Source: a virus. From it: a DNA stretch of 23,120 bases. Positions 11,213 to 22,191 of this stretch are shown here, in pieces. The stretch covers positions 1 through 23,120 of the IMG/VR virus record IMGVR_UViG_3300025132_000319. One strand, given 5' to 3'. Position 1 is the stretch's first letter; each line of letters starts with the position of its first letter. A program made the translations under genes and the position numbers. Under the pieces are notes generated by a model. That model ran no database searches. It was not told the DNA's origin and saw only the letters and a program-made list of their open reading frames with translations.

Positions 11213-11617
11213 CTAAAATGGAATTTCATCATCTATTGGTAATGAATCATTTGCTGTTGTTGAATTTTGTTTAGATAATTTTTCTGAAACTTGCAAGCTT
11301 AACATATTCTTACCATCTTTGGTTTGTCTTTTCCAAGCAGCTAATCTCATTGGTTTATCTTTATTAAACCTTTCATTTAAAGATCCAGAGTATTTTGGTG
11401 CGCCTTCCGTAGCACTATCATTCTCAAACAAAGCACAGAACTCTGTATATACTTTGAGAATAATCTTACCGTTCTTTGTTTTTTCTTTTACAACTGCCAG
11501 CTTATGTTCTTGCCCTTCCATATCTAGCTTACCGGTTAGCATCAGCTTATCATCTGAACTAAATGGTGGGAAGACAGCTCCTTTGTTTGTATTATCATAC
11601 TCTTCAGAACTCATCAT
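11213..11617 (-). CDS. SSB-like protein with tandem DUF736-like halves
   Basis: A 134-residue protein whose C-terminus, LPIDDEIPF, copies the acidic tip of bacterial SSB (D-D-D-I-P-F), the docking site for replication and repair proteins. The body has two similar beta segments: residues about 26-58 (GKLDMEGQEHKLAVVKEKTK, N-G-K) and 76-113 (YSGSLN...MRLAAWKRQTKDGKNMLSLQ). The second resembles DUF736 proteins (G-S-L...L-A-A-W-K...K-x-G-K-x-x-L-S-L). An OB-type ssDNA-binding fold is a reasonable inference. It lies directly after the annealing protein (14-base overlap), as expected for a Red-like module. Ribosome site AAAGGAAACA precedes the start. Confidence 0.6.
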   Translation of the reverse strand: MMSSEEYDNTNKGAVFPPFSSDDKLMLTGKLDMEGQEHKLAVVKEKTKNGKIILKVYTEFCALFENDSATEGAPKYSGSLNERFNKDKPMRLAAWKRQTKDGKNMLSLQVSEKLSKQNSTTANDSLPIDDEIPF

Positions 11618-12146
11618 TGTTTCCTTTCACATATTTGTTATCATCATATTTACCTAAGAATACATCAGCATCAAATCCAAGATGTGATAAACCTTTGGTT
11701 AGTGCATCTGTTAATGCCATCTTTGGAGCATCATCATTTGCTTTCTTTTTGTTATCAAGATTTACAAATGTTCTTGATCCAGCTATTGGTCCAAAGGAAC
11801 CAAAGTATGTAGTGATAGTTACCTTTGCTACCACCATCATAATATTTCCTAATGTGGGATAGTCATACTCTACAGTATATGTCCAGCCATCATTCTTTGT
11901 ATCATTACCAACAGGACCAAGAACAGCAGTAGCTTTTAAAATTTGGTACATAGGATCTATTGCGTTAAAAGATCTGGCACCGAATGATACTTTACTTATA
12001 AATTCTGGATCTGTTTCACAAACTGCTTTCCATAATTTTAAATTAGTATTTGCAACTTCATCAGCTTTTTTAATTTTTTCTACTAATCTTTTTTTTAATA
12101 ACCATCTAGGTTTTTTATCACCAATATTATCTTTTCTCATAGTCAT
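11604..12146 (-). CDS. Rad52/ERF-like single-strand annealing protein (candidate)
   Basis: A 180-residue protein, start chosen at the ATG at 12146 (AAGGGTG seven bases upstream; a GTG at 12155 is also in frame). The N-terminus is basic. The central part, with PMYQILKATAVLGPVGNDTK and a Y-T-V-E-Y-D-Y-P strand series, is beta-rich. The C-terminal motif DDAPKMALTDALTKGLSHLG, then F-D-A-D-V-F-L-G-K-Y-D-D-N-K-Y, is the type found in phage Rad52/ERF-superfamily recombinases (beta-hairpin fold followed by a helix with A-x-T-x-A-L-x-x-x-L). It lies between a YqaJ-type exonuclease and an SSB-like gene, the standard gene order of a Red-like pathway. Family assignment is moderate. Confidence 0.55.
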   Translation of the reverse strand: MTMRKDNIGDKKPRWLLKKRLVEKIKKADEVANTNLKLWKAVCETDPEFISKVSFGARSFNAIDPMYQILKATAVLGPVGNDTKNDGWTYTVEYDYPTLGNIMMVVAKVTITTYFGSFGPIAGSRTFVNLDNKKKANDDAPKMALTDALTKGLSHLGFDADVFLGKYDDNKYVKGNNDEF

Positions 12147-12147
12147 T

Positions 12148-12684
12148 TTATTCACCCTTTATTTCTGGCTCTTTATCTTCAATTACATACTGCCAAAACT
12201 TGAATACTTTTTCTTTGAGCCGATCAAGAAAAACTCCATCTTTAGGTATGGCAATACACTTCCACGGTTTCCCATTACCAAAAAAGTTTGGGAAATAACA
12301 CAAGCTGGTATTAGATAGCCACATATAAAACTGTAATTGTGGGTAATATCTTTCAGCTTGAGCATCTATTTTAGAAAATGAATTAGTATGTTTAGCTTCA
12401 ACAATAGCTGTTTGATTAACTACTGATGCATCTATTGTACCTTTCAATGGTACTCCATTGTAATTCAATGTGTATTCTTTTTGAAAGTTTTCAAGTTCAA
12501 CTTCATATTCCTTTGCAAAAACTTCTAAGTTGTAAGCTTCTGTTAAGATACCAATTTGTACCTGATGGTTTTCAGACAGATCATCTGGTTCTTTTCTTTT
12601 GGTTTTGATTTGCCATAGGTCATGCCAATCACCTTGCATGATTTTTGTACAATCAGATCCACCAATAAAACCTATTCTATTCAT
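12148..12684 (-). CDS. YqaJ/lambda-exonuclease-type recombination nuclease
   Basis: A 178-residue PD-(D/E)XK exonuclease expected to resect double-strand ends to give 3' ssDNA for annealing. Visible motifs: N-terminal F-I-G-G-S-D (residues 6-11) and D-L-W-x-x-K-T (22-28), typical of YqaJ enzymes; acidic E49; T-I-D85-A-S; E96-A-K98; and the Y-Y-P-Q-L-Q-F-Y-M helix (residues 113-121). It is slightly shorter than usual. It is the first gene of its operon, behind the promoter at 12766-12794 and a structured leader, with a modest AAAGGG ribosome site. Confidence 0.82.
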   Translation of the reverse strand: MNRIGFIGGSDCTKIMQGDWHDLWQIKTKRKEPDDLSENHQVQIGILTEAYNLEVFAKEYEVELENFQKEYTLNYNGVPLKGTIDASVVNQTAIVEAKHTNSFSKIDAQAERYYPQLQFYMWLSNTSLCYFPNFFGNGKPWKCIAIPKDGVFLDRLKEKVFKFWQYVIEDKEPEIKGE

Positions 12685-17491: not shown

Positions 17492-17519
17492 TTATAAAAA
17501 ATCCTTACCATAGTGTCAA
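17491..17519 (-). promoter_or_regulatory. Perfect consensus sigma70 promoter (early leftward)
   Basis: Minus strand TTGACA (17514-17519), 17-base spacer, TATAAT (17491-17496): all twelve consensus bases at optimal spacing. It would be read by host RNA polymerase immediately after infection and drives the operon running from 17459 down to about 12877. The -35 box lies inside the 3' end of the 38-residue ORF. Confidence 0.82.
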
Positions 17520-17621
17520 GCATAACATTACAATACTGACAGAAATGAATGAACTGACAATGAATGTAACACACACTGTTAGTAATAATAGGTTCATTGT
17601 TTCTCTGAATTGTCGCATCAT
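17505..17621 (-). CDS. 38-residue membrane peptide
   Basis: A short ORF starting MMRQFRETMNLLLLTVCVTF and ending I-V-M-L-C-L-T-L-W. It has a charged N-terminus followed by a long hydrophobic helix, typical of a small inner-membrane protein. CGGAG lies five bases before the ATG, a good ribosome site. Its last codons contain the -35 element of the early promoter. No family recognised; superinfection exclusion or membrane modulation are possible roles for such peptides. Confidence 0.45.
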   Translation of the reverse strand: MMRQFRETMNLLLLTVCVTFIVSSFISVSIVMLCLTLW

Positions 17622-17638
17622 ACAAACTCCGAAATGTC

Positions 17639-17669
17639 GTAGGTTATTTAATAGCATTTAATAACCTAC
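17639..17669. repeat. 10-bp perfect inverted repeat
   Basis: GTAGGTTATT (17639-17648) and AATAACCTAC (17660-17669) flank an 11-base AT-rich spacer. It lies beside the terminator stem at 17680-17701. It is AT-rich and not followed by a T-run, so a protein site or an extra RNA hairpin is more likely than a terminator. Confidence 0.5.
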
Positions 17670-17679
17670 AGTAAGTTAA

Positions 17680-17707
17680 GCACCACCCCGAAGGGTGGTG
17701 CGTTTTT
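17680..17707 (+). terminator. Strong GC-rich hairpin terminator, possibly bidirectional
   Basis: A 9-bp stem GCACCACCC / GGGTGGTGC (17680-17688, 17693-17701). On the plus strand it is followed by G and five T's. On the minus strand the loop is TTCG closed by C-G, the stabilising UUCG tetraloop, but only TTAACTT follows. It ends transcription of the 126-residue gene (minus) at least partly, and is a better terminator for plus-strand RNA. Confidence 0.65.
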
Positions 17708-17708
17708 G

Positions 17709-18089
17709 CTAGGCTACCTTAGCCAAGCTCTCTACAGTTTCACCAGTGTCAACGCACTCTTGAACTGCTCTGAACACTTTCATCAGACCTTGCTCAGCCT
17801 TGTGTTGTGCTTGGTATCTATGATACTTATCACTAACTGATTTTTGCATTTCATCTGTGAAAGCGTCTGGATCAGATTCAAGCTTGCGTTCCATTCCGAG
17901 AAATGTCATCTCAGCTTCATCGAATCTTTCTTTAGTACCTTTGTAAGTACCACCTTTTACTCTAGTATTAAGACCATCTGCTACCCACTTAGCTGAGTAA
18001 GAGAAGTCACTATATACTTCACATTCACTTACAAACTTCATGATTGCATTTGCTAGCTTTACTTGTTCTTTGCTTAACTCTATTGTCAT
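17709..18089 (-). CDS. Hypothetical helical protein in its own transcription unit
   Basis: A 126-residue protein starting MTIELSKEQVKLANAIMKFV. It is almost entirely helical, rich in Glu and Lys, with one Cys-Glu-Val-Tyr segment, an aromatic part (YSDFSYSAKWVADGLN) and a Gln/His-rich helix (DKYHRYQAQHKAEQGLMKVF). It is isolated from the next leftward gene by a strong hairpin and preceded by a highly structured 5' region (18134-18214). Ribosome site is AGGAGA seven bases upstream. Base composition is richer in G+C than the genes to its left, like terS. I do not recognise a family; an early regulatory role is possible from position. Confidence 0.6.
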   Translation of the reverse strand: MTIELSKEQVKLANAIMKFVSECEVYSDFSYSAKWVADGLNTRVKGGTYKGTKERFDEAEMTFLGMERKLESDPDAFTDEMQKSVSDKYHRYQAQHKAEQGLMKVFRAVQECVDTGETVESLAKVA

Positions 18090-18133
18090 TAGCTTTCTCC
18101 TAGTTGTTTATTAATTGAATGGTCACACCTCGA

Positions 18134-18214
18134 TGATTGGGGTAGCTCTGTCAAGTCTCGCACTTGACATAGCTAGGGCGTTCGGCTTGCCCGAATCCCC
18201 CGAAGCCCCAATCA
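18134..18214. other. 81-nt multi-branch inverted-repeat element
   Basis: The outer stem TGATTGGGG (18134-18142) pairs with CCCCAATCA (18206-18214). Inside, TAGCT-C-TGTCAAG (18143-18155) pairs with CTTGACA-T-AGCTA (18163-18175), leaving a 7-base loop. A second inner hairpin is formed by TTCGG / CCGAA (18181-18185, 18191-18195) or GGGC / GCCC. The result is a three-way junction. As RNA it would lie in the leader of the minus-strand 126-residue gene, 45 bases before its start. As DNA it lies 170 bp before terS. It may be a structured RNA, a pac/cos-type site or an origin element. Confidence 0.6.
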
Positions 18215-18344
18215 GCTAGGTTTGAACAGGCAAGGAATGAATAACTAGGAGAATGATGACCGAGTTGCAAAGCAAGTAAAGCTAGCAAATGTGATCAAGA
18301 AGTCACGCATAGCCACGAATAGTTGCCCTCGCCTTACTTGGCTG

Positions 18345-18374
18345 TTGACAGGGTTGTTGCAGATACGCTAGACA
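18345..18374 (+). promoter_or_regulatory. Possible terS promoter giving a nearly leaderless mRNA
   Basis: TTGACA (18345-18350) is a perfect -35 box; TAGACA (18369-18374) is a weak -10 at 18-base spacing. The predicted start falls at about 18381, directly at the terS ATG, which has no ribosome site. Weak evidence because of the -10 box. Confidence 0.3.
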
Positions 18375-18381
18375 CACAAGT

Positions 18382-18765
18382 ATGAACTCGGTGACGAATA
18401 ACAATGCTAGTCTGACAGCCAAACAAAGGCTACTCGTTGATACGCTCGTAGCAACGGGTTGCACCATTACTGAAGCTAGCCAGATAGCAGGCTATGCTAA
18501 AGGCGACTCAGGTAGAGTCAGTGCGAGCAAGGCCTTGAAGGTTCCACACGTGCAAGCTTACATGATGCAACAGATCACTGAGTCTTTAGGATTGAATGCT
18601 ACGAAAGCTAGCAGAAAGCTAATGGAGCTTAGCTCTGGTGCTAAAAGCGAGTATGTTCAGCTTGAAGCTAGTAAGGACATTCTGGATAGAGCTGGATTCA
18701 GAGCGGTAGATAGGCATCAGCATATGCTCATTGGTGAGCTTAAAGTGAACATACAGCTAGATTAG
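18382..18765 (+). CDS. terS: Terminase small subunit
   Basis: A 127-residue DNA-recognition subunit of the packaging motor. Residues about 10-50 form an HTH of terS type (LTAKQRLLVDTLVATGCTIT, then E-A-S-Q-I-A-G-Y-A, S-A-S-K-A-L-K-V-P-H-V-Q-A-Y). A helical oligomerisation part (KASRKLMELSSGAKSEYVQL, L-D-R-A-G-F) and a short end follow. The only in-frame start is this ATG (upstream TGA at 18346-18348); no ribosome site precedes it. terL is downstream at 20665, separated by a block of small genes. The gene is G+C-richer than its neighbours and uses AGC for Ser unusually often. Palindromic elements flank it on both sides. Confidence 0.8.
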   Translation: MNSVTNNNASLTAKQRLLVDTLVATGCTITEASQIAGYAKGDSGRVSASKALKVPHVQAYMMQQITESLGLNATKASRKLMELSSGAKSEYVQLEASKDILDRAGFRAVDRHQHMLIGELKVNIQLD

Positions 18766-18780
18766 CCCAGAGCTGGTGTT

Positions 18781-18887
18781 AATGTCTAGGCTTCGCCTAG
18801 GCTGTTTAAATATGGTCAAGCATAGCTTGACTATGTTTAAAAATGTCTAGGCTGCGCCTAGGCTATAACACCATGGCAAAGCCATGG
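18781..18887. repeat. Cluster of four 3-base-loop palindromes with a 23-bp direct repeat
   Basis: In order: CTAGGC-TTC-GCCTAG (18786-18800); a near-palindrome with 17-bp arms (two mismatches) centred on ATA (18805-18841), core GTCAAGC-ATA-GCTTGAC; CTAGGC-TGC-GCCTAG (18847-18861); CCATGGC-AAA-GCCATGG (18871-18887). The first and third lie in 23-bp direct repeats (18781-18803 and 18842-18864) with one mismatch. All four share a GC-NNN-GC centre. No T-run follows, so they are not simple terminators. Possible roles: packaging recognition, origin, recombination site or RNA element. Confidence 0.7.
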
Positions 18888-18955
18888 GGGGCAAAAACGC
18901 AAGTTGATAGTTACTGGGAGATAGCGTTCTAACATTTTTTTCTTGAAAAGCTCTG

Positions 18956-18974
18956 AACTTAGTTTAACTTAGTT
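18956..18974 (+). repeat. Tandem AACTTAGTT repeat upstream of the DUF6321-like gene
   Basis: AACTTAGTT occurs at 18956-18964 and again at 18966-18974, a 10-base period close to one helical turn, 16 bases before the ATG at 18991. TTGAAA at 18943-18948 is a possible -35 box with no good -10. It could be an activator or late-regulator site; evidence is weak. Confidence 0.3.
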
Positions 18975-18990
18975 GGCAAAGGAGGACATC

Positions 18991-19281
18991 ATGGCTAAGA
19001 CTCCAGCATGGACACGCAAAGAAGGTAAGAACCCTAAAGGTGGTTTGAATGCCAAAGGTAGAGCAAGCTACAAGAAGGGTACTCTAAAGCCACCAGTTAA
19101 GAGTGGTGATAATCCTAGAAGAGCTTCTTTCTTAGCAAGGATGGGTAATATGCGTGGACCAGAAAGAGATTCCAAAGGAAAGCCTACCAGACTTCTTCTT
19201 AGTTTAAAGGCTTGGGGTGCTAGTTCGAAGGCAGATGCTAGAGCCAAAGCAAGAGCAATCAGTAAAAGGAATAAAGCATGA
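18991..19281 (+). CDS. DUF6321-like small basic protein
   Basis: A 96-residue very basic protein. The ATG at 18991 is chosen because a perfect AAGGAGG lies six bases upstream; a TTG at 18973 is in frame but unneeded. It begins MAKTPAWTRKEGKNPKGGLN and continues A-K-G-R-A-S-Y, then P-R-R-A-S-F-L-A-R-M-G-N-M-R-G-P and K-G-K-P-T-R-L-L-L-S-L-K-A-W-G, the pattern of DUF6321 proteins that are frequent in marine phages near terminase genes. Nucleic-acid binding is likely from charge, but not shown. It overlaps the next gene by four bases (ATGA). Confidence 0.75.
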   Translation: MAKTPAWTRKEGKNPKGGLNAKGRASYKKGTLKPPVKSGDNPRRASFLARMGNMRGPERDSKGKPTRLLLSLKAWGASSKADARAKARAISKRNKA

Positions 19282-19526
19282 GCAAGAAAGTAAGATGGTG
19301 GGAAGAAGATGCAGATAATCTTCAAGAGAATGTAAGAAAAATGAAAGAGAAGATTGATAACAACGAAGTTGATTTAGATATGTGTGCTGATTTTCTAGAG
19401 TATCACTATGATAAATATATAGCTCAACAACCTAGTTCATATAAGACATGGCTTGAAAAGAAGTTTAGAGTTGCTGAAATGTTATCAAGGTCACCAACAG
19501 ATATAGATATAGGGAAGTTAAAATAA
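19278..19526 (+). CDS. Hypothetical helical protein
   Basis: An 82-residue, acidic and helical protein beginning MSKKVRWWEEDADNLQENVR. It has a likely coiled coil (residues 13-35), then DMCADFLEYHYDKY and a K-T-W-L-E-K-K-F-R-V-A-E-M-L helix. It contrasts with its basic neighbours and might pair with one of them. Starts in an ATGA overlap and ends in a TAATG overlap. No family recognised. Confidence 0.6.
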   Translation: MSKKVRWWEEDADNLQENVRKMKEKIDNNEVDLDMCADFLEYHYDKYIAQQPSSYKTWLEKKFRVAEMLSRSPTDIDIGKLK

Positions 19527-20664: not shown

Positions 20665-22191
20665 GTGGCTTCTTTTGATTACAAACCAGATGGGAATACT
20701 ATTAAAGTATTTATGAAAGACTCTAAGTTTTTTAGAGGAATTAGAGGTCCAGTTGGTTCTGGCAAGTCAGTTGCTTGTTGTGTTGAGGTATTTCGTAGAA
20801 GCCTTGAGCAAAAGAAAAACAAAGAAGGTATTCGTAAATCTCGTTGGGCTGTTATAAGAAATACAAACCCACAATTAAGAACGACTACTATTAAGACTTG
20901 GCTTGATTGGTTTCCAGAAGATGTATGGGGTAGGTTTCATTGGTCAGTACCTTATACTCATCATGTTAAAAAAAATGATTTGGATATGGAAATTATATTT
21001 TTAGCATTAGATAGACCAGAAGATGTAAAGAAACTTCTTTCTTTGGAACTTACTGGTGTATGGATTAACGAAGCTAGGGAAATACCAAAGAGTATTATTG
21101 ATGCGTGTACTATGCGTGTTGGTCGTTATCCTTCTATGAGAGATGGTGGAGCAAGTTGGTCTGGAGTGATTGCAGATACCAATGCTCCAGAAGAAGATCA
21201 TTGGTGGCCTATTATGGCTGGAGAAGTTCCGATACCAGATCATATTCCAAAAGAACAAGCAACTATGTTAGTAAAGCCAGATAATTGGGGATTCTTTACA
21301 CAACCATCTGCAATGATAGAAGCTTATGATGATAAGGGTGAAGTAAAAGATTATACTATGAATAAAGAAGCAGAGAACGCAAAGAATATATTAGCTACTT
21401 ATTATCCTAATCTTATTCGTGGTAAGACTAAAAGCTGGATAGATGTTTATGTTATGAATAGGCTAGGTGCTATACAAGATGGTAAACCTGTTTATCCACA
21501 GTTTGTAAGTGAAACGCATATTGCAAGTGAAGAAATACCAATAGCTATTGGTGTACCTCTTTATATTGGAATTGATTTTGGTCTTACTCCTTCTGCTGTG
21601 TTTGGACAGAAAGTTCGAGGTCGGTGGTTACTACAGTCAGAGATTGTAGCCATTGATATGGGTATAGTTCGTTTTGCCGAACTTCTAAGACAGGAGATTG
21701 CTACACGATTTAATAGTCTTGATGTCTATATTTATGGTGACCCAGCTGGAGATTTCAGAGCGCAGACAGATGAAACAACTCCTTTTCAAATACTACGAGG
21801 TGCTGGACTGAAAGCAACGCCAGCTCCTAGCAACAGCATAGACCTTAGACTTGAATCTGTTTCTTCACAACTTACTAAGATGGTAGATGGCAAATCTGGA
21901 TTGTTAATAGATAGAAGATGTCCTCAGATTATTAAAGGATTTCAAGGTGGCTACTGCTATAGAAGAATGCAAGTGTCTGGAGAAAGATATGAAGATAAAC
22001 CTGAAAAAAATATGTTCTCTCACATTCATGATGCTTTGCAATACTTAATGTTAGGTGCTGGAGAGGGTCGAAGTTTGATGGCTGGACAAAAACCAGTACA
22101 AGCTTTCAATGCAAGAAAAGGCTTTGATTTATTTAAAAGACCTAGTATTAGTAGAAATAGAACCTTTTTTGGAAATGATTTAAGGAGGTAG
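20665..22191 (+). CDS. terL: Terminase large subunit (ATPase-nuclease)
   Basis: A 508-residue packaging motor starting at GTG, two bases after the previous stop and without a good ribosome site, so probably coupled. ATPase domain: Walker A G-P-V-G-S-G-K34-S (28-35), Walker B with G-V-W-I-N-E136-A-R (131-138). Nuclease domain of RNase H type: D304 in Y-I-G-I-D-F-G, D359 in Y-G-D-P-A-G-D, and H-I-H-D456-A-L-Q-Y. The length is normal for podovirus-like TerL. It moves DNA into the prohead and cuts it; specificity comes from TerS. The portal follows after one small gene. Confidence 0.93.
   Translation: MASFDYKPDGNTIKVFMKDSKFFRGIRGPVGSGKSVACCVEVFRRSLEQKKNKEGIRKSRWAVIRNTNPQLRTTTIKTWLDWFPEDVWGRFHWSVPYTHHVKKNDLDMEIIFLALDRPEDVKKLLSLELTGVWINEAREIPKSIIDACTMRVGRYPSMRDGGASWSGVIADTNAPEEDHWWPIMAGEVPIPDHIPKEQATMLVKPDNWGFFTQPSAMIEAYDDKGEVKDYTMNKEAENAKNILATYYPNLIRGKTKSWIDVYVMNRLGAIQDGKPVYPQFVSETHIASEEIPIAIGVPLYIGIDFGLTPSAVFGQKVRGRWLLQSEIVAIDMGIVRFAELLRQEIATRFNSLDVYIYGDPAGDFRAQTDETTPFQILRGAGLKATPAPSNSIDLRLESVSSQLTKMVDGKSGLLIDRRCPQIIKGFQGGYCYRRMQVSGERYEDKPEKNMFSHIHDALQYLMLGAGEGRSLMAGQKPVQAFNARKGFDLFKRPSISRNRTFFGNDLRR

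Follow-up and report, generated by a model that had tools for sequence, protein, structure and literature searches.

Known pac and cos sites, among them P22 pac, lambda cos and PaP3 cos, lie in or near terS. Phage phi29 depends on a branched packaging RNA (pRNA), which is essential, and its packaging motor is of a different kind. Two other kinds of small hairpin are relevant here: REP/BIME and other mobile palindromic repeats, imperfect hairpins of small size that one phage or bacterium may have and a close relative lack, and the promoters of the N4 virion RNA polymerase, which have short stems and loops of three bases, in many cases with a purine centre on one strand. SAR11 phages rank among the most abundant viruses of the sea; a limited literature search found no mapped packaging site for them. 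To our knowledge, RNA structure next to a terminase gene is known so far mainly from the cabRNAs. Staphylococcal phages make these structured RNAs from the terS/terL region, with no sequence relationship from one phage to the next; they came to light through their binding to a CBASS cyclase, which they activate (PMC10686824). In P22, pac sits inside the TerS gene (PMC7672466).

The locus described here, a cassette of four hairpins behind terS followed by a conserved block, resembles each of these systems only in part. Like the cabRNAs, the cassette and the other insert families are structured hairpins of the terminase region without sequence in common, their RNA being a prediction; the cabRNAs derive from terS/terL sequence itself, whereas the cassette is inserted, in some phages and not in others, between terS and a conserved DNA block. 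The phi29 pRNA is required for packaging, whereas the cassette is dispensable, and relatives with near-identical TerS lack it. With respect to the pac and cos sites of tailed phages, the block has the expected place and a modular, rigid spacing; the palindromic cassette differs in being dispensable and without conservation. Since known sites lie in or near terS, the block fits this precedent and the palindromes do not.

Genomic setting

By sequence, the window (the whole stretch of DNA analysed, 23,120 nucleotides) belongs to a virus that infects ocean bacteria and is allied to the SAR11 phages, with Pelagibacter phage EXVC031P among its relatives; its TerS is 61% identical to a protein of that phage, and its TerL 65.5%. 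The small-subunit gene is the first of a rightward late operon that follows a divergent region, and the early genes run leftward. An earlier note on this DNA had considered a replication origin among the roles of the palindromes. We found no support for this: the GC skew does turn near 18 kb, but this is the same place at which the gene strand switches, and the switch explains the turn. A scan of positions 17500-19400 for promoter-like matches ahead of the cassette, to which phage promoters may not conform, returned none but one weak site.

Table 1. Features of the terS region and of the hairpin cassette, in window coordinates.
Feature	Position	Strand	Remarks
Viral fragment IMGVR_UViG_3300025132_000319	1-23,120		IMG/VR record, 23,120 bases
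terS, terminase small subunit (Terminase_2)	18382..18765	+	PF03592, E 4e-8; PHROG 2538, E 2e-10
Accessory hairpin cassette	18766..18885	+	Insert from terS stop to conserved block; in L160 and L161, not in L002
Outer stem, 5' arm GGTGTTA	18775..18781	+	Pairs with 18866-18872
Hairpin 1, GTCTAGGC-TTC-GCCTAGGC	18784..18802	+	Within direct repeat 18781-18803
Hairpin 2, TTTAAATATGGTCAAGC-ATA-GCTTGACTATGTTTAAA	18805..18841	+	17-pair stem
Hairpin 3, GTCTAGGC-TGC-GCCTAGGC	18845..18863	+	Within direct repeat 18842-18864
Outer stem, 3' arm TAACACC	18866..18872	+	Pairs with 18775-18781
Hairpin 4, CCATGGC-AAA-GCCATGG	18871..18887	+	Abuts G-run of conserved block
Conserved terS-linked block, candidate cos/pac site	18886..18955	+	GGGGGGCAAAAAC, core 18920-18939 with TAACATTTTTTT, then TTGAAAAGCTC
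terL, terminase large subunit	20665..22191	+	PHROG 2, E 4e-20

Several other features of the window were observed. A degenerate inverted duplication, with copies at 18035-18140 and 18206-18303 that share about 69-77% identity, extends over the region of the divergent early and late promoters, and the start of a leftward gene (17709-18089) appears to have been copied in reverse within it; the duplication is also present in the relatives L002 and L164. Between two leftward genes, at 17680-17701, lies a strong hairpin (GCACCACCC-CGAA-GGGTGGTGC) that has GTTTTT after it on the + strand; it resembles a terminator, though the flanking genes lie on the other strand. Farther away, on the - strand at 11604-12684, a recombination pair is encoded: a YqaJ-type exonuclease (PF09588) and a neighbour that matches an exonuclease-annotated PHROG.

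Architecture and fold stability of the cassette

The earlier note had described four palindromes with 3-base centres in 107 bases, a GC-NNN-GC centre common to all of them, and 23-bp direct repeats differing by one base. All of these are present (Table 1). Its 17-bp-arm palindrome, our hairpin 2, indeed forms 17 pairs, of which 15 are Watson-Crick and two are G.T wobbles. What that description did not include is the outer stem (GGTGTTA/TAACACC), which closes hairpins 1-3 into a single nested unit and leaves hairpin 4 next to it. Hairpins 1 and 3 are both near-palindromes of one sequence, so two folds are available to the region: a single long hairpin, or three hairpins that share a stem. The computed energies of the two forms are close, with the long hairpin favoured (-63.1 vs. 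-56.4 as RNA, -29.6 vs. -26.9 as DNA).

Chance is excluded as the origin of these palindromes. The 23-kb window contains eight hairpins with perfect arms of 6 bp or more and a 3-base loop, and four of the eight fall within the 107-bp cassette stretch, where about 0.03 would be expected at 4^-6 per position (Poisson P ~2e-8, by hand arithmetic). The folding z-scores of the cassette were -6.1 as DNA and -7.7 as RNA, and none of 200 shuffled sequences was as stable.

The absence of T-runs reported earlier holds for the + strand; on the - strand, ACATTTTTAA comes after hairpin 3 and makes a weak match to a terminator, the only one at the cassette. An intrinsic terminator was accordingly rejected as an identity for the cassette.

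The cassette in close relatives

To find further copies, the pattern GTCTAGGCNNNGCCTAGGC was scanned against 2.9 million viral contigs. Both repeats were recovered in two further phages, L160 and L161, each time behind terS; the other six contigs carried the pattern in unrelated places, in line with chance. The window, L160 and L161, which are close relatives of one another, make up family A. Their stem pairs were counted by script on structure-guided arms and not on MAFFT columns, as MAFFT misplaced some stems. The outer stem is paired in all 21 cells, and five of its seven pairs have undergone double changes (the stem of L161 reads GTTAAAC/GTTTAAC). Within the family, the arms of hairpin 4 change from CCATGGC/GCCATGG to TGGGGGC/GCCCCCA; pairing holds in 20 of 21 cells, and four of seven pairs carry double changes. 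These compensatory changes, in three relatives only, bear out the earlier impression that the symmetry is selected, with the proviso that quasi-palindromes corrected by template switching could show a similar pattern. In hairpin 1 the stem is invariant and the loop variable in L160 and L161; the stem octamer GYCTAGGC is retained throughout the family, with loops that vary.

A fourth phage, L002, has a TerS 94% identical to that of the window and the same conserved block, and it lacks the palindromes. It matches the window at 92% identity up to 18766 and at 97% from 18879, with about 26 other bases in between. To judge from this genome and from a further relative, L194 (see below), the cassette is dispensable and optional. 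Since L002 combines a near-identical TerS and closely matching flanks with the absence of the cassette, an outcome that the earlier note had itself named as refuting, the palindromes are not required for packaging. The earlier note had raised the possibility that the terminase recognises the palindromes as its pac/cos site, and their location directly behind terS and next to the conserved block is what such a site would lead one to expect. Given L002 and the fact that most TerS relatives likewise keep the block without palindromes, we regard that proposal as highly improbable.

A conserved block as the packaging-site candidate

The block of about 70 bp is found just 3' of terS in 101 of 104 distinct TerS relatives, irrespective of the downstream gene. 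Its consensus consists of a G- or C-run, AAAA, a gap that measures 21-24 nt from the A-run to the core in nearly all relatives, a core like GTCCCnCACTMACATTATT, and then AAAAGGTTCG. Blocks were located by PWM, with a correction for CTCGACC variants. A scan of all 2.9 million IMG/VR viral contigs with GGGGTNAAAAN{28,32}CACTMACATTWTT returned 22 matches, every one beside terS or in a terS-type setting: 20 had a detectable terS directly upstream, one had the 3' end of terS at the contig edge, and the remaining one stood behind a hairpin insert that is known also from behind terS. Contig ends showed no sharp pile-up at the block, in a sample that is biased and from assemblies, which do not report virion ends.

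The rigid spacing, the strict linkage to terS and the indifference to the downstream gene make the block the best cos/pac candidate, and it is probably the true packaging site. The earlier expectation of a packaging site nearby is supported as to position, and not as to the palindromes. The block provides a precise packaging-site candidate for SAR11-type phages, and it can now be separated from the adjoining optional element, which turns over quickly while its pairing is kept.

Other inserts between terS and the block

The gap from the terS stop to the block is usually about 5-14 nt, and most TerS relatives have the block without palindromes. In EXVC031P, an isolate whose host is HTCC1062, the distance from terS stop to block is about 33 nt. 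A substantial minority of lineages, however, carry inserts of 45-290 nt at this point, several of which are strongly folded and unrelated in sequence to each other. Two phages whose TerS proteins are 98% identical differ in just this way: L062 has 132 bases where L194 has five. On a TerS tree built from few columns, it takes about 15 changes to explain the structured state, and well-supported branches force seven or more of these. A third family of inserts was observed in L077, L181 and L221, with stems CTTGCCCGAATGGGCAAG and GTCAATCCG...CGGATTGAC.

The second family, B, is defined by a conserved apical hairpin, GCRATC-CTA-GATYGC (CNGCRATCCTAGATYGCG). A database search for this tip yielded 22 matches; 18 lie in the terS-block gap and share a single orientation, and the remaining four are in unrelated coding or chance-like places. 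Below the tip, an 8-bp lower stem has been wholly replaced among five lineages with all 40 of 40 pairs kept, and six of its eight positions show two or three pair types.

Such elements might have no function at all: template switching at free DNA ends, at a place where terminase cuts, could both create quasi-palindromes and keep them homogeneous. Perfect arms around 3-base loops are the expected leftover of hairpin-primed correction, gain and loss have been repeated, and a larger degenerate inverted duplication lies nearby (18035-18303). We think this quite unlikely, as correction alone does not predict a tip that is kept while the stem beneath it is fully exchanged, and the orientation is fixed. 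Nor does the cassette appear to be a mobile palindrome of the REP/MITE type. REP/BIME elements are likewise short imperfect hairpins that are present or absent between close relatives; this identity was rejected because families A and B are confined to the terS-block gap apart from chance-like matches. Pattern scans found no dispersed copies of either family in viruses or host genomes.

How the cassette may act

Tentatively, we view the cassette as an accessory structured element inserted beside the probable packaging site, its most likely form of action being that of a cis-acting RNA within the late mRNA. This mRNA, made in the rightward direction, would contain the cassette just after terS, and the outer stem would gather three triloop hairpins, with the fourth beside them, into a compact RNA fold. 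This fold could act in cis on the message by protecting or processing the 3' end of terS, and it may set the amount of transcript that continues past the packaging site. That the cassette is transcribed, that RNA and not DNA is the acting form, and that its role is regulatory are what we infer to be most likely. The case for an RNA structure draws on folding far beyond that of shuffled sequences, on the compensatory changes, on the conservation of the family B tip over exchanged stems, on the density of triloop hairpins in the terS-block gap, and on the strand asymmetry of family A.

This asymmetry consists in better folding of the + strand than of the - strand, beyond what composition accounts for (z_delta of -2.8, -2.0 and -2.7). 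It arises because stem positions that depart from Watson-Crick pairing are mostly G.T on the + strand, the exception being one A.G in L160. Among the other inserts, z_delta ranged from -2.2 to +1.4, and most had no strand asymmetry. The preference for + strand RNA in family A, which comprises three close relatives only, is thus suggestive.

Alternatively, the cassette might act as DNA next to the packaging site, its palindromes being bound by proteins or extruded as cruciforms; it could, for example, supply auxiliary sites that load TerS or a host protein, or protect the free end after cutting. The cassette does abut the block, with hairpin 4 overlapping the G-run, and the invariant octamer stem with variable loops in family A is operator-like in its dyad symmetry; the fixed orientation fits DNA as well as RNA. 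Both the general idea and these particular roles nevertheless strike us as somewhat unlikely. Most relatives have the same block without a cassette, the insert families share no sequence and hence no common protein site, and the wobbles of family A favour one strand.

A structured RNA acting in trans is another candidate, whether as a packaging RNA, as a decoy or anti-defence RNA, or as a kind of RNA sensed by bacterial defence. The staphylococcal terS/terL hairpin RNAs that activate CBASS despite being unrelated in sequence set a precedent (PMC10686824), and unrelated inserts turning over at one site would be compatible with an arms race, as they would with an accessory function. Two points speak against a trans-acting RNA: the location of the cabRNA sequences, inside terS/terL and not in an optional insert, and the lack of an Rfam match: covariance models gave no hit to the cassette at the gathering score, the best sub-threshold one being mir-789 (E 1.5). 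We judge a trans-acting role unlikely. In a broader form of the idea, which we hold to be doubtful, the stretch that separates terS from the packaging site would be a hotspot that acquires unrelated structured RNAs acting in trans on packaging choice or host defence; a parallel with the terminase-region RNAs sensed by staphylococcal CBASS, drawn by analogy, seems to us just as doubtful.

To return to the hairpins themselves, short stems with 3-base loops are a trait that the cassette has in common with N4 promoters. An N4-type hairpin promoter was rejected: the 33.8-kb contig of L160, which is maybe not quite complete, has no ORF of more than 1370 residues and therefore no N4-type polymerase.

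Triloop hairpins occur at 0.83 per kb in the gap bin (the first 250 bases after terS) vs. about 0.05 in the next kilobase, a difference of about 16-fold. A second hairpin-rich zone was seen in relatives 0.5-2 kb upstream of terS, in the early region (for example L052, about -1640 to -950; L006, -1482; L063, -1333; L075, -1612). Several perfect hairpins of this upstream zone have GC-GAA-GC centres, a DNA mini-hairpin motif of unusual stability.
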